DNA from: an uncultured bacterium
GTDB taxonomy: Bacteria > Patescibacteriota > Minisyncoccia > SW-4-49-11
Assembly (NCBI GenBank): GCA_937864235.1
Contig: CALMJI010000017.1
Span: forward strand, 1-41,982
DNA length: 41,982 bases
Reading direction: 5' to 3'
Shown: positions 21,637 through 41,982 of the stretch, in pieces
How the letters are laid out: the number at the start of each line of letters is the position of its first letter
How positions within the stretch are numbered: the stretch's first letter is position 1
The notes under the pieces: generated by a model
Seen by the model: only the letters and a program-made list of their open reading frames with translations
Told to the model about the DNA's origin: nothing
The model's database searches: none
Program-made: the position numbers and the translations under genes

Positions 21637-24162
21637 CTAGAACTCAGTCACAAAAACCTTAAAGCTTCCACTAGCAGGATCTTGAGCTACTCCAGAGTTA
21701 TTGTTAAACCTAACTGTAACAGTATTAGCAACACTCACCCAAGCTGTAAAATTAGAATTTGCAGCCGGAACACTACCATTAGGAATTCCAAGGGATACTA
21801 CATCATTCAAATTAGCTCCAGTGACAGTGACTGTCAAATCAGTAAAGCTACCATTATTAGTAGAAGCAAAATCTAAAGTAGCTGTAGCGGTAAGTCCCTG
21901 ATTGATAGTTTGTCTTACTCCCCCACTAGTAGTAAGGAATAAATTCGTACCATTCCATTCCACAGCACCAGCTTCTGGAGTGGTTAAGTTAGTACCAGAA
22001 GTAAATTTAAGCGGAGCAGTATTAGCAGTAGCCGTACCAGCAGCTAAATGTAATTTAGCTGTTGGAGTATCCGTCCCAATCCCAATATTCCCGCCAGGAG
22101 TTATTATCATCCTCCGTGATAAAGTAGTCACTCCACCAGTATAAAATGCGTTAATACCTGTATTAAATATAATGGAACCACTAGTTGCATTCCTTAAATA
22201 AGTCCCACTATAACCAACAGACCCTCGTCCAGCACTGAGATTAAGGTCTGCTCCTTGATGCACTGAGTAATTTTCCCCAACTACAGCGCTTGCTCCTATT
22301 ATTTGTGCTGCAGGCAAAGTGGCTGCTGTTCCCTCTCCCGTTCCCACCACTATTGTATTATCTGTCAATACTCTCATCCTCTCTGTCGCATTTGTCCTTA
22401 TTGACAATGCCTGTGCATCAATTGTCCCTAGATAATTACTTGTTGGATTCGTCCCGCTGTTACCTGTTGTTGCCCAGAGCAAAGAATTGTTTGGACTCGT
22501 CCAGCTTAAAACTCCTGTAGTAGTGCTTGTCAAGATTTGTCCATTGGCCGTAGCTGCTGCATTCGGCAAGGTATACGATGTATTGCTACCGGTTGACGGG
22601 GCATTGAACTGCACGGAAACTGAAGAGGATGAAATCATTAACCCTCCTGCGACATGCAAAAGACTGTTTGGAGTATCCGTCCCAATCCCAATATTCCCGC
22701 CAGGAGTTATTATCATCCTCCGTGATAAAGTAGTCACTCCACCAGTATAAAATGCGTTAATACCTGTATTAAATATAATGGAACCACTAGTTGCATTCCT
22801 TAAATAAGTCCCACTATAACCAACAGACCCTCGTCCAGCACTGAGATTAAGGTCTGCTCCTTGATGCACTGAGTAATTTTCCCCAACTACAGCGCTTGCT
22901 CCTATTATTTGTGCTGCAGGCAAAGTGGCTGCTGTTCCCTCTCCCGTTCCCACCACTATTGTATTATCTGTCAATACTCTCATCCTCTCTGTCGCATTTG
23001 TCCTTATTGACAATGCCTGTGCATTACTTGTCCCTAGATAATTACTTGTTGGATTCGTCCCGCTGTTACCTGTTAATGACCAGCCAGAACCAGAACCGGC
23101 ACTGGTCCAACTTAATACTCCACTACCGTTTGTACTCAATACTTGATTGATTGTACCATCTGCACTTGGTAAGGTATAAGTTGTACTTCCAGCAGCTGCA
23201 GCGGGGGCAAAGCCTACAAATCCTGAGGTAGATCCAGATAATCTCAAGGTTCCTCTTATATCCAGAGCTGAACCTGGTGTTGTTGTGCCTATACCAATAT
23301 TACCAGTTCCTAGAATCCTCATTCGCTCATTAGCACCATTAACTCCTGTGAAGAATCTTATATCTTGAGCGGTTGGATTAGTGGTAGCTAATATCAGAGG
23401 CTGGGCACTTGTTGTTCCTAATCTTGTACCACTACTTCCATTCCAAGCATCTGTTGTTGCATTCCCTGCCAATGCCCAACCTGTACTTGTAGTTAAGGAC
23501 CCACTATTTAATGAACTCAAATTTACTTGACTAAACTGACCACTACTATTAGCTAATAATACTCTATCAAAACCTACCGGTGTGGATGCATTAGCCGTTC
23601 CACCTAGTGAAGTAGCAACTACATTACCACTTACGTCCAAAGATAATGTATCAGTATCAGTACCACCATTAGCTGCCACCAATCTCATAGCATTAATTGC
23701 TGAGACTGCTGACCCTATTCTTTTACGAGGAGAGAAAACCTCCTCATAGGAGCCATTATTATCCATATCTAATTGTAACTCTAGCCACAATGAGTCATCA
23801 TTTATTGTACTAATTGTTGTATTCTGACTTCCTAATAGAACTTCAAATCTCCCATCACTGACAGATAATAATGGAGATACGCCTGTTCCTGCATAGTTGG
23901 TAAACCCATCTCTTATCTCTTCATATATAACTGTACCAGCAGAACTAGTATTATATAATATAAACTTTGCTCTATATGATCCTTCTAAAAGAGTTCCATC
24001 GTTCTTGACTATAGTTCCAGAATATGGAATCTGTGGGTTAATACCTGTATTGGCTGAAGTAATGTTAATATTAAATAAATATATAGCCAGAAACAAAAAT
24101 CCTAATAATATAATTTTATTACTTTTGATTTCAGATATGTTTTGTACAATTGGGTGAGTCAT
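21637..24162 (-). CDS. Secreted/surface repeat protein with phage tail-fibre-like GNIGIGT repeats and conserved C-terminal domain
   Basis: 841 aa; N-terminal hydrophobic signal/anchor; repeated NIGIGT(T/D)TP and ATERMRVL units; C-terminus ATLDFASTNNGSFTDLTVTVTGANLNDVVSLGIPNGSVPAANSNFTAWVSVANTVTVRFNN..DPASGSFKVFV. Confidence 0.8.
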   Translation of the reverse strand: MTHPIVQNISEIKSNKIILLGFLFLAIYLFNINITSANTGINPQIPYSGTIVKNDGTLLEGSYRAKFILYNTSSAGTVIYEEIRDGFTNYAGTGVSPLLSVSDGRFEVLLGSQNTTISTINDDSLWLELQLDMDNNGSYEEVFSPRKRIGSAVSAINAMRLVAANGGTDTDTLSLDVSGNVVATSLGGTANASTPVGFDRVLLANSSGQFSQVNLSSLNSGSLTTSTGWALAGNATTDAWNGSSGTRLGTTSAQPLILATTNPTAQDIRFFTGVNGANERMRILGTGNIGIGTTTPGSALDIRGTLRLSGSTSGFVGFAPAAAAGSTTYTLPSADGTINQVLSTNGSGVLSWTSAGSGSGWSLTGNSGTNPTSNYLGTSNAQALSIRTNATERMRVLTDNTIVVGTGEGTAATLPAAQIIGASAVVGENYSVHQGADLNLSAGRGSVGYSGTYLRNATSGSIIFNTGINAFYTGGVTTLSRRMIITPGGNIGIGTDTPNSLLHVAGGLMISSSSVSVQFNAPSTGSNTSYTLPNAAATANGQILTSTTTGVLSWTSPNNSLLWATTGNSGTNPTSNYLGTIDAQALSIRTNATERMRVLTDNTIVVGTGEGTAATLPAAQIIGASAVVGENYSVHQGADLNLSAGRGSVGYSGTYLRNATSGSIIFNTGINAFYTGGVTTLSRRMIITPGGNIGIGTDTPTAKLHLAAGTATANTAPLKFTSGTNLTTPEAGAVEWNGTNLFLTTSGGVRQTINQGLTATATLDFASTNNGSFTDLTVTVTGANLNDVVSLGIPNGSVPAANSNFTAWVSVANTVTVRFNNNSGVAQDPASGSFKVFVTEF
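22062..22469 (-). repeat. Intragenic direct repeat, copy A
   Basis: ttggagtatccgtcccaatcccaatattcccgccaggagtt... near-identical to 22668-23075 at a constant 606-bp offset (202 codons). Confidence 0.95.
22668..23075 (-). repeat. Intragenic direct repeat, copy B
   Basis: About 400 bp almost identical to 22062-22469; the only difference seen inside the block is gcatcaattgtcc vs gcattacttgtcc (ID vs SN in protein). Confidence 0.95.
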
Positions 24163-38546: not shown

Positions 38547-39614
38547 ATGTATAAATCCGGGTATAGTGTATTATTACTAACAATCATCATCTCAGCTATA
38601 GGAGTAGCTTTAGCTGTTAATGCACTTAGTAATAGCACTCAAATTGCTAAAACTAATATTAACATTACTGATGCTGCGTTAAATCAATCACAAAATTCAA
38701 GTTGTGTGGAAAAAGTGTTTGCTAAGCTAAGAGCTTACAAATTTTATGGTGGTGATGAGACATTTGAGGATGGATGTCGAGTATATACAATATCTGGAAC
38801 TGGGAATGGACAGAGAATAATTCATACCAAAGTAGACTCTACTATATTAGAGACTAAAATCAAACAAATTAACCCTAGTATAGTAATTGATTATCAAAAA
38901 CAAATTACATCTGCTGAACTCAATCAAAGTCAAGAGAATAACCCATATCTAATAGCCCCATCGGCACTAAGATTGTGGCTCAAAGCAGATAGAGCTGAGG
39001 CTAATAATGGACAGCCTGTTTTAAGTGTCAAGAATGCTACCGATGATTTGATAGATTTTGCTCAAGTTATTACAACTCCTAATCTTGCTCCTACATTAGT
39101 TACTAATGCTATTAATAATAGGCCTGCACTTAGATTTGATGGAATAGATGATTTCTTAACTAGTACTACAACTTCTATACATACTACTAATGGTCTTAGT
39201 GTAATTATAGTAGGTAAAACATCAAATACAACTAATAGTAATCAAACTTATATATCTAAATTCAATTCCACCAATAGAGAATGGCGATTACAAAATGATG
39301 AATTTAATGTGGTGAATGATACACTAAATTTCTCAAATAATAATACCAACTTTAATATATTATCTGCTCTATGGTCACCAACTAACCCGCAGCTTAGTAT
39401 ATCTATCAATAATAACACAACCTCCACAACTACTGGAGCTAATACCATTGCCACTACTAATGAGCCGCCTATTATAGTTGGAGCTAATAATCAGGGAAGT
39501 ACGGGCTTCCTAAATGGAGATATAGCTGAAATTTTAGTCTATAATAAAAAACTAAGTGATACTGAATTAACAAAAGTTCGAACATATTTTAATAATAAAT
39601 ATAGTATTTACTAA
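38547..39614 (+). CDS. Minor-pilin-like protein with C-terminal LamG/lectin-like domain
   Basis: N-terminal SGYSVLLLTIIISAIGVALAVNAL (pilin-like helix without the canonical GFTLLE), pilin-like first domain, then RPALRFDGIDDFLTSTTT...FLNGDIAEILVYNKKLSDTELTKVRTYFNNKY. Confidence 0.75.
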   Translation: MYKSGYSVLLLTIIISAIGVALAVNALSNSTQIAKTNINITDAALNQSQNSSCVEKVFAKLRAYKFYGGDETFEDGCRVYTISGTGNGQRIIHTKVDSTILETKIKQINPSIVIDYQKQITSAELNQSQENNPYLIAPSALRLWLKADRAEANNGQPVLSVKNATDDLIDFAQVITTPNLAPTLVTNAINNRPALRFDGIDDFLTSTTTSIHTTNGLSVIIVGKTSNTTNSNQTYISKFNSTNREWRLQNDEFNVVNDTLNFSNNNTNFNILSALWSPTNPQLSISINNNTTSTTTGANTIATTNEPPIIVGANNQGSTGFLNGDIAEILVYNKKLSDTELTKVRTYFNNKYSIY

Positions 39615-39621
39615 AAATAAT

Positions 39622-41532
39622 ATGAAAAAATACTCTGGATTTACATTATTAGAAATATTATTATATGTAGTTATAGGAGGTGTGACTTTGGTTGTTGCTG
39701 TATTTTCATTCGCACAACTAAATAGATTGTCCACTTCCTTTAGAGTTAATAATGAATTGAATCAAACAGCTAATTCTATAATTGAGCAAATTAAAAATTT
39801 AGCAAATGAAGCAGATAATATTATAAGCCCTAAACTTGGGGCGAATGCTGATGATGAAATAATCTTGAGAAAAGATAATGTAGAGACTACTATCAAGCAA
39901 GAATCCAATAATATTACTGTTAGCTATAGTAATGGTGATCCCTCTTATAATCTTAATACTACTGGTATATTAGTAGTAAATGACCCAGCTACTACCCTAT
40001 CTTTTGAGCAAATTGATACTCAGGATAATAGTAATAAATCTAGTATTTCTCAATCTATCAAATTAAAATTCACACTCCGTTATAATAAACCTGAATTTAG
40101 TAGCTATGAATATGAAGCAGAAAAACTCTTTGAGACCACAATTAGTTTATCCAAGCAAAGCCAAGCCTTTAAACCAATTCTCAATACTTACCCAACTGGA
40201 GCCAATGGAGTTGCTTATGGATTAAGGAAATTATCTGGCTTCAATACTAACCCTAATCAATTATCTTCAGCCTATAATGGACCAGCTATTCGAGTCAGGA
40301 GAGATAGAGGTTTGGACCAAACTGAAATGGATATAGGATTTAACTCTAAAGGAGAATTAGACCAAGTAGCTCTACAAAATTTTGTGGGTTATCAAAATTT
40401 TTTGAGTTATTCTGAGGATATTACTACTACTGGTGGGTGGGTATTTTCCAAAGATATTAATGATAATAATGACACTATATCAATTACGGCTGATAATACT
40501 CAAGCCCCTGATGGGACAAATACGGCTGAGAAAGTGAATTTGAGTGCAGGGAATAATAATAAATCTATTACCAAAAACACTAATTTAACTATCGGCTCTA
40601 CCTATACTGAATCCTATTATGTCAAAGCTAATGGCTATAATTTTGTGCAGATAGCTCCAGATACTGAATTCTCAACTACAGCTTATCAGAATTATAATCT
40701 TAGCAATGGGACTTTGGGTAGCTCATCTGGAATAAGTTCAGGACAGGCTAATATTCAAAGTGTTGGTAATGGCTGGTATAGAATTTCTCTTACGGCTACA
40801 GCTAATTCAACTACATCTTCCCCGATTAATTCAATTAGATCTGGTAGAATGGTATTATCTATTGTGAGTTCAGCTAGTTCAGCTAGATTAGAGAGTATAA
40901 ACACAACCACAGCTACCGACTCTATATTTGTCTGGGGAGCTATGCGACATCTTGGCTCTACCTTGAAGCCGTATCAGCAAACTTTAGCCAATGCCAATAC
41001 AGGAGATGGGTATGTAACAACTTGGTATGACCAGTCTGGCAATCGCAATAATGCTACTCAAACTTCTACAAGTTCACAACCTAAAATAGTAGATGGGGTA
41101 AATGGTATTATTAGGATGAATAATAAGCCGGTTCTTAGATTTGATGGGACTGATGACCAATTAGTTAGTAATTCCTTTAATAATCCTACTAATTCTACAG
41201 CTTTTTTTGTCGCTAGTAGACTTGCTAATAATCAATCATTTATGGCAAGATCTACTAATTATGCTATATTAGGTTCTCCTGATTTATTTAATAGTTATTA
41301 TCTGAATAGATCTAATACAGCAGCCACAACTGGAGGAGATACTAAAAACTCTCTCAACTTATATACCGCTATACGAACATCCGCTATAAATAGTACGCTT
41401 GCTATAGGAGCTGGCAGTGCTGGTAACTTTCTAAATGGGAATGTGGCTGAGTTAATTATTTACGATGGGAATAAATTAAGCAATAGAACTAATATTGAAA
41501 ATAATCTAAGAGATTATTACGGGACACCGTAA
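39622..41532 (+). CDS. Type IV prepilin fused to arabinofuranosidase-like/LamG-like modules
   Basis: N-terminal YSGFTLLEILLYVVIGGVTLVVAVFSFAQL; C-terminal AYGLRKL...GPAIRVRRDR...YVTTWYDQSGNRNNATQ...KPVLRFDGTDDQLVSN...FLNGNVAELIIYDGNKLS. Confidence 0.82.
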   Translation: MKKYSGFTLLEILLYVVIGGVTLVVAVFSFAQLNRLSTSFRVNNELNQTANSIIEQIKNLANEADNIISPKLGANADDEIILRKDNVETTIKQESNNITVSYSNGDPSYNLNTTGILVVNDPATTLSFEQIDTQDNSNKSSISQSIKLKFTLRYNKPEFSSYEYEAEKLFETTISLSKQSQAFKPILNTYPTGANGVAYGLRKLSGFNTNPNQLSSAYNGPAIRVRRDRGLDQTEMDIGFNSKGELDQVALQNFVGYQNFLSYSEDITTTGGWVFSKDINDNNDTISITADNTQAPDGTNTAEKVNLSAGNNNKSITKNTNLTIGSTYTESYYVKANGYNFVQIAPDTEFSTTAYQNYNLSNGTLGSSSGISSGQANIQSVGNGWYRISLTATANSTTSSPINSIRSGRMVLSIVSSASSARLESINTTTATDSIFVWGAMRHLGSTLKPYQQTLANANTGDGYVTTWYDQSGNRNNATQTSTSSQPKIVDGVNGIIRMNNKPVLRFDGTDDQLVSNSFNNPTNSTAFFVASRLANNQSFMARSTNYAILGSPDLFNSYYLNRSNTAATTGGDTKNSLNLYTAIRTSAINSTLAIGAGSAGNFLNGNVAELIIYDGNKLSNRTNIENNLRDYYGTP

Positions 41533-41908: not shown

Positions 41909-41982
41909 CTAATATGTTGGTAACTTATACCTCACAACTACGATACCAGAGCCACCATTGCCACCCGCACCTTCAAATACCG
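41909..41982 (-). CDS. C-terminal end of a Gly-rich surface protein, truncated by the window edge
   Basis: Minus-strand translation VFEGAGGNGGSGIVVVRYKLPTY followed by TAG; GG.GGSGIVVVRY is a typical C-terminal motif of Gly-rich tail-fibre/surface proteins. Confidence 0.7.
   Translation of the reverse strand, partial: VFEGAGGNGGSGIVVVRYKLPTY

Follow-up and report, generated by a model that had tools for sequence, protein, structure and literature searches.

The locus analyzed here raises the question of whether a type IV prepilin of an uncultured patescibacterium carries one domain lodged inside another, and of what use such an arrangement might be to its bearer. The window, i.e., the whole stretch of DNA that was analyzed, is one complete contig of 41,982 bp (C17) from a source genome (G000) of 815 kb distributed over 29 contigs. 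A reading of the sequence alone had proposed a 636-aa prepilin in which an arabinofuranosidase- or LamG-type module is interrupted by about 200 residues resembling phage tail carbohydrate-binding modules (CBMs). An open reading frame starting with ATG, hereafter P0001, has exactly the proposed position and length (Table 1). Taken together, the evidence presented below makes P0001 most likely a tip adhesin of the minor-pilin type, constructed from a phage-type receptor-binding module, its tip position and ligand being inferred.

Table 1. Coordinates of P0001, its parts and the adjacent pilin-like gene in the window.
Feature	Coordinates	Strand	Basis
Pilin-like P0002, PilX/GspK-like, lacking E5 (MYKSG/YSVLLLT), with its own C-terminal LamG domain	38547..39614	+	PF13385, E 8e-7
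Predicted nested modular minor pilin P0001, 636 aa	39622..41532	+	Full-length orthologues L019 and L020 at 56-57% identity
Class III signal peptide (MKKYSG/FTLLE, with E5) and long N-terminal helix, residues 1-63	39622..39810	+	Pfam N_methyl; helix 9-63 in AF2 model
Globular pilin domain, residues 64-180, PilW/GspJ/ComGF-like by position and weak profile similarity	39811..40161	+	AF2 strands 66-175, pLDDT mostly 80-96; GspH/ComGF matches weak, below cut-off
Shell N-part, GH54-like, residues 193-257	40198..40392	+	Strands 223-229 and 235-238 and helix 248-255 have counterparts in the insert-less module
Imperfect tandem repeat of 18 nt (QNFVGY/QNFLSY), coinciding precisely with the upstream junction of the insert	40375..40410	+	
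Inserted phage-type jelly roll, putatively carbohydrate-binding, residues 258-460 (~203 residues)	40393..41001	+	phmmer 6tb9, 9b45, 8env; phrog_5939; Foldseek CBM16/22/61; viral homologues at the same insertion point
Shell C-part, GH54-like, residues 461-636	41002..41529	+	PF09206 match when joined to N-part; pLDDT 80-94 at 461-530
Terminator-like hairpin overlapping the P0001 stop codon	41517..41542	+	Pattern match only

The prepilin portion of P0001 comprises residues 1–180. Its N-terminus (MKKYSG/FTLLEILLYVV) matches Pfam N_methyl at 23–25 bits, above the cut-off of 21.2, and in the AF2 model the long hydrophobic helix is followed by a β-sheet domain, in keeping with the canonical prepilin N-terminus initially recognized. 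P0001 thus unites a pilin moiety and an extra functional module, the combination that defines modular pilins. A Pfam search with the whole protein returned nothing besides N_methyl; standard annotation misses the additional domain because the insertion site splits it. P0002 lies directly upstream, and the gene pair is conserved in five relatives. Its E5-less, pilin-like N-terminus follows the pattern of PilX/GspK-type tip subunits. The PilW-like assignment of P0001 and the PilX-like assignment of P0002 are drawn from gene order and weak profiles only.

Further evidence for a pilus context comes from related genomes. The orthologue in G001 is immediately adjacent, in convergent orientation, to genes coding for PilB, PilC and ComGD/GspH-like, GspG-like and PilV/ComGE-like prepilins, and the orthologous locus of G002 has the same order of open reading frames. 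G000 itself encodes PilD, PilB/PilT-type ATPases and PilC, and its matching pilus operon stops at the end of contig C24; since no sequence overlap was found between the end of the window and C24, adjacency of P0001 to this operon in G000 is deduced from synteny with G001 only. Display on a type IV pilus, as first suggested, fits both the prepilin N-terminus and the neighboring pilus genes. At the very end of the window (41909-41980, minus strand), the C-terminus of a glycine-rich protein (VFEGAGGNGGSGIVVVRYKLPTY, then the stop codon) runs off the contig; this fragment may be the missing distal part of the prepilin that is truncated where C24 stops, and a similar motif occurs in a prepilin on C7. 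Elsewhere in the window, an 841-aa protein without a Pfam match (21637-24162, minus strand) lies beside an 845-aa TPR protein. The genome as a whole contains 15 prepilin N-termini, at least eight of them in frames of 380–770 aa, a large modular pilin set for 0.8 Mb. A truncated 63-aa prepilin N-terminus on contig C21 (G000:C21:126-203, L200; MNKIHKRTRKGFTLLE...RSDVNT, with a stop soon after) is near-identical to the beginning of a full-length pilin on C18 (compare C27) and is possibly a remnant or cassette of pilin exchange.

The landmarks of the proposed interruption are readily located in P0001: AYGLRKL begins at residue 198, FVG ends at 256, and NFLSYSED and GYVTTWYDQSGN begin at 259 and 463, respectively. 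When the insert was excised in silico, by joining residues 180–256 to residues 459–636, the joined flanks matched the GH54 catalytic family PF09206 (ArabFuran-catal) as a single stretch across the junction (E 5.4e-7, 29.4 bits; cut-off 25 bits), as would be expected if the first module resumes after the insert. The N-half and the C-half of this shell, searched separately, gave zero Pfam matches at E ≤ 10. Most insert-less relatives have 3–12 residues where P0001 has its insert. They are found in Niastella vici (NFVGSGDGYVTTWYDQSGN), in Roseateles, in many viral contigs and in L034 (FCGTSNCYVQTWHDQSGN), a modular pilin of the same bacterial family that matches PF09206 in one stretch; the contiguous form described in the sequence-only reading, and the insert-free versions that it thought worth seeking, therefore exist, one of them in a pilin of the same family. 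The AF2 model of the L034 module (pTM 0.85) has strands 31–35 and 41–44, helix 53–60, a 3-residue loop and strand 64–70, and in a Foldseek search against the PDB its top five matches are GH54 arabinofuranosidase B (E 5e-9 to 3e-8, TMq 0.55–0.62). The elements of P0001 come in the same order in its AF2 model, the insert falling between helix 248–255 and strand 462–468; the alignment behind this model took in insert-less homologues, so the model is no independent test of nesting. Because the excision match, the insert-less relatives, the L034 fold and the order of elements agree, both flanks are assigned to one fold, and the insert is predicted to fill the 3-residue helix-strand loop of a GH54-like β-sandwich. 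Of the dual description of this module as arabinofuranosidase- or LamG-type, the former part holds, with GH54 as the specific family; likeness to LamG is confined to the C-terminal half. The tandem repeat at the upstream junction may be due to chance.

The insert resembles by sequence the head spike Rcc01080 of a gene transfer agent (GTA; 6tb9) and baseplate proteins of phages Pa193 and E217 (9b45 and 8env). The phage "tail protein" family phrog_5939 matches P0001 over residues 259–616, i.e., the insert and the C-shell only (E 8e-15), and these matches bear out the phage-tail resemblance originally attributed to the interruption. Foldseek retrieved CBM16, CBM22 and CBM61 folds, the insert region of the AF2 model being of moderate confidence (pLDDT 40–85). 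In Pfam, the insert alone (residues 258–460) had no match, including none to the curated CBM_4_9 profile; L042, a viral relative arranged in the same way, does match CBM_4_9 (PF02018). As the insert itself lacks a Pfam match, the label "carbohydrate-binding" derives from its viral relatives, from CBM_4_9 in L042 and from fold similarity. The insert is best described as a phage-type, putatively carbohydrate-binding jelly roll, and sugar binding by it would follow from these likenesses.

The same loop carries inserts in phage and Bacteroidota proteins as well. All loci retrieved, in a retrieval biased toward proteins with recognizable halves, were searched with profiles of the N-half, the C-half and the insert; the two halves were balanced like brackets in 128 of the 131 distinct complete open reading frames that carry an N-half. 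Of the three others, L040 is a frame-broken frame, L067 has an additional lone LamG half and L049 is a true exception: L049:4533-5591 is the only clear case of an outer N-half without its outer C-half (order NNC). A CBM occupies this loop in P0001 and its two orthologues and in the viral proteins L042/43, L156, L159 and L183. Other contents of the loop include the module itself (L044, L057 and L061), a module that in turn carries a CBM (L038) and two modules side by side (L003). A secreted Bacteroidia protein with a Por secretion tail (L013:4914-8603) has the order N N N C C C, i.e., three nested levels, and the phage frame L159:167-4825 has CBMs lodged in two neighboring loops of the same shell, an arrangement that occurs twice in the protein. 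Exactly two residues separate the end of the N-half from the start of the CBM in P0001, L019, L020, L038, L156 and, twice, in L159, with profiles built without L156 and L159.

The closest parallel is viral. Residues 186–636 of P0001 are colinear with the phage frame L156 through the N-junction, the entire insert and the C-junction (35% over 338 aa, E 1e-39), and the neighbors of L156 include long tail fiber and virion structural families. The nested phage relatives come from metagenomic viral contigs of IMG/VR; isolated phage genomes gave four partial matches, to the C-shell only, and a search of plasmids yielded no relatives. It is about evenly balanced whether the helix-strand loop is a general docking slot for other binding domains and for further copies of the module, such "matryoshka" adhesins being traded among phage tails, secreted Bacteroidota proteins and patescibacterial pilus tips, so that host-seeking bacteria would build pilus tips from phage receptor-binding parts.

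Within the Patescibacteriota, full-length nested orthologues (L019 and L020) occur in two other genomes of the genus, and the nested pilin is absent from the other genomes among the 384 sampled in the class. When the whole phylum was scanned with the module, 28 of 380 genomes had matches, most of which are LamG-like halves within very long proteins. At the equivalent position of the gene pair, other genera of the family have a prepilin with a plain LamG-like domain (L021, L023 and L024); the tip module has therefore been exchanged. Between orthologues, the shell N-half (65–69%) and the insert (61–63%) are the best conserved segments, and the pilin part (44–50%) and the C-shell are the least (42–50% for the two). 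In a tree of 77 shells, the nested pilins group together (97) and fall, with weak support, near the insert-less L034 and a single viral module; the tree does not separate donor from recipient. A second prepilin of G000, 559 aa in length (G000:C21:3498-1822; L203 and L217), has as its C-terminal part a near-intact phage tail domain (phrog_5939, E 2.7e-89), and orthologues of it occur in G001 and G002; contig C21 also bears a transposase-like open reading frame. Recruitment of phage-type modules to pilins was therefore not a single event.

Several other accounts of P0001 need to be weighed against a nested adhesin. Two unrelated modules could simply follow the pilin domain in series, and annotation does not force nesting upon us, as Pfam sees N_methyl only in the whole protein; this serial arrangement is nevertheless very improbable, and was rejected on the excision test, since a curated match that neither half gives is restored by excision, contiguous relatives and other inserts in the same loop are on record, and both halves form part of one predicted GH54 fold. 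That a phage gene fragment was misjoined to a pilin gene during assembly or binning might be suspected of a contig from a fragmented genome, the more so for a module common in phages. Such an artefact can be practically dismissed: the same architecture is found full-length, in a syntenic gene pair, in two further genomes of the genus, which was the ground for its rejection, and P0001 is a single open frame without stops among cellular housekeeping genes. These neighbors in the window code for Lon, ribosomal protein S2, a Mur ligase, a chaperonin and RNase HII; together with the pilus genes, they also led to the rejection of a prophage gene. The shell could, on the other hand, be an active α-L-arabinofuranosidase, or another glycosidase, carried on the pilus and directed to its substrate by the inserted CBM, and indeed its closest relatives are PF09206 and the GH54 structures. 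However, sequence similarity to GH54 ends after about 70 residues, short of E221, which is mutated in the substrate-soaked GH54 entry 6sxr. A retaining glycosidase requires two carboxylates, whereas one near-invariant carboxylate only was seen in the C-part (E, position 237 of L034) across 33 insert-less modules, a comparison confined to conservation among these modules. CBM42, expected C-terminally in GH54 enzymes, had no Pfam match in P0001 at E ≤ 1. Catalysis by the shell is the less likely reading, and we consider an enzymatic role improbable.

The function of the pilin is a matter of finer judgment. P0001 probably belongs to a patescibacterial type IV pilus as a modular minor pilin; its GH54-like shell with the nested phage-type CBM would sit at the tip with P0002 and bind glycans of partner cells. 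Through its N-terminal helix and pilin domain, P0001 would be built into the filament, most likely at the tip alongside its E5-less neighbor P0002. Anchored at two points, the CBM would be held rigid at the distal end of the shell, from where it could bind partner-cell glycans before the pilus retracts. Placement of both proteins in a tip complex that shows the insert to such glycans is suggested by gene context and by the precedents of Streptococcus sanguinis PilC and TM7x PilX2, and the high conservation of the shell N-half and the insert fits this presentation. The module might instead serve filament-filament contacts, binding to the biofilm matrix or to polysaccharide, either the cell's own or from the environment; type IV pili have many functions and many carriers of the module are non-pilins, but Patescibacteria in cultivation live on host cells, and in TM7x a minor pilin that bears an extra domain has a part in host binding (PMC12206443), which makes such roles rather unlikely, if worth keeping in mind. 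The source bacterium, a tiny one, is probably host-attached and probably uses this pilin to grip other cells. P0001 is a concrete and expressible candidate for host recognition by uncultured Patescibacteria.

Each ingredient of this arrangement is already known. Modular pilins number more than 1,200 in 264 architectures, Patescibacteria included (PMC8179133), and S. sanguinis PilC is a lectin minor pilin (PMC9934059). Like PilC, P0001 has a class III signal peptide, a pilin moiety and a C-terminal sugar-binding-type module (ConA/LamG-type in PilC), and both would likely belong to a minor-pilin tip complex. In contrast, as far as the available text of these two papers goes, the modules of PilC and of other modular pilins follow in series at the C-terminus, none being nested within a lectin module, whereas P0001 combines a GH54-type shell with a phage-type CBM. 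TM7x (Nanosynbacter lyticus) PilX2, a proposed adhesin, is likewise a patescibacterial minor pilin with an expanded C-terminal domain, and its deletion lowers host binding (PMC12206443); unlike P0001, PilX2 has a β-propeller module without nested insertion, and its noncanonical signal peptide resembles that of P0002. In the literature searched, no pilin whose lectin-like module carries a nested phage-type module, no self-nesting of a GH54-like module and nothing specific on GH54-like nested tail proteins were found.

Beyond pilins, the shell fold is that of the catalytic domain of GH54 α-L-arabinofuranosidase B (1wd3, 6sxr; PF09206), with sequence similarity across the insertion junction; the enzyme is without insert, and P0001 is without a detected CBM42 and without recognizable catalytic residues. 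The phage frame L156:1487-2872 and the phrog_5939 tail proteins share the nested order and similar junctions (FxGYQN ... PYQ(K/Q)T ... YVTxWYDQSGN) with P0001 but are stand-alone or multi-module virion proteins that lack a pilin domain. The evolved Dit proteins of siphophages also bear CBMs in loops of a β-sandwich (galectin) domain, for display in host-glycan binding (PMC7291167); their carrier domain is different and located in the virion baseplate, whereas P0001 is a pilin, and no Dit-type domain (N-terminal ring) was matched in P0001 with Pfam or PHROGs. Hierarchical domain nesting is known as well from the recursive insertions of RNA polymerase β′, where inserts are consistently smaller than their hosts (PMC13114784). 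The folds are other ones there, and the phage and Bacteroidota relatives described here, unlike β′, insert a module of the same family and the same size into itself; this common self-nesting site suggests a route by which phage-tail and pilus adhesins could gain new specificities while their anchoring remains unchanged.
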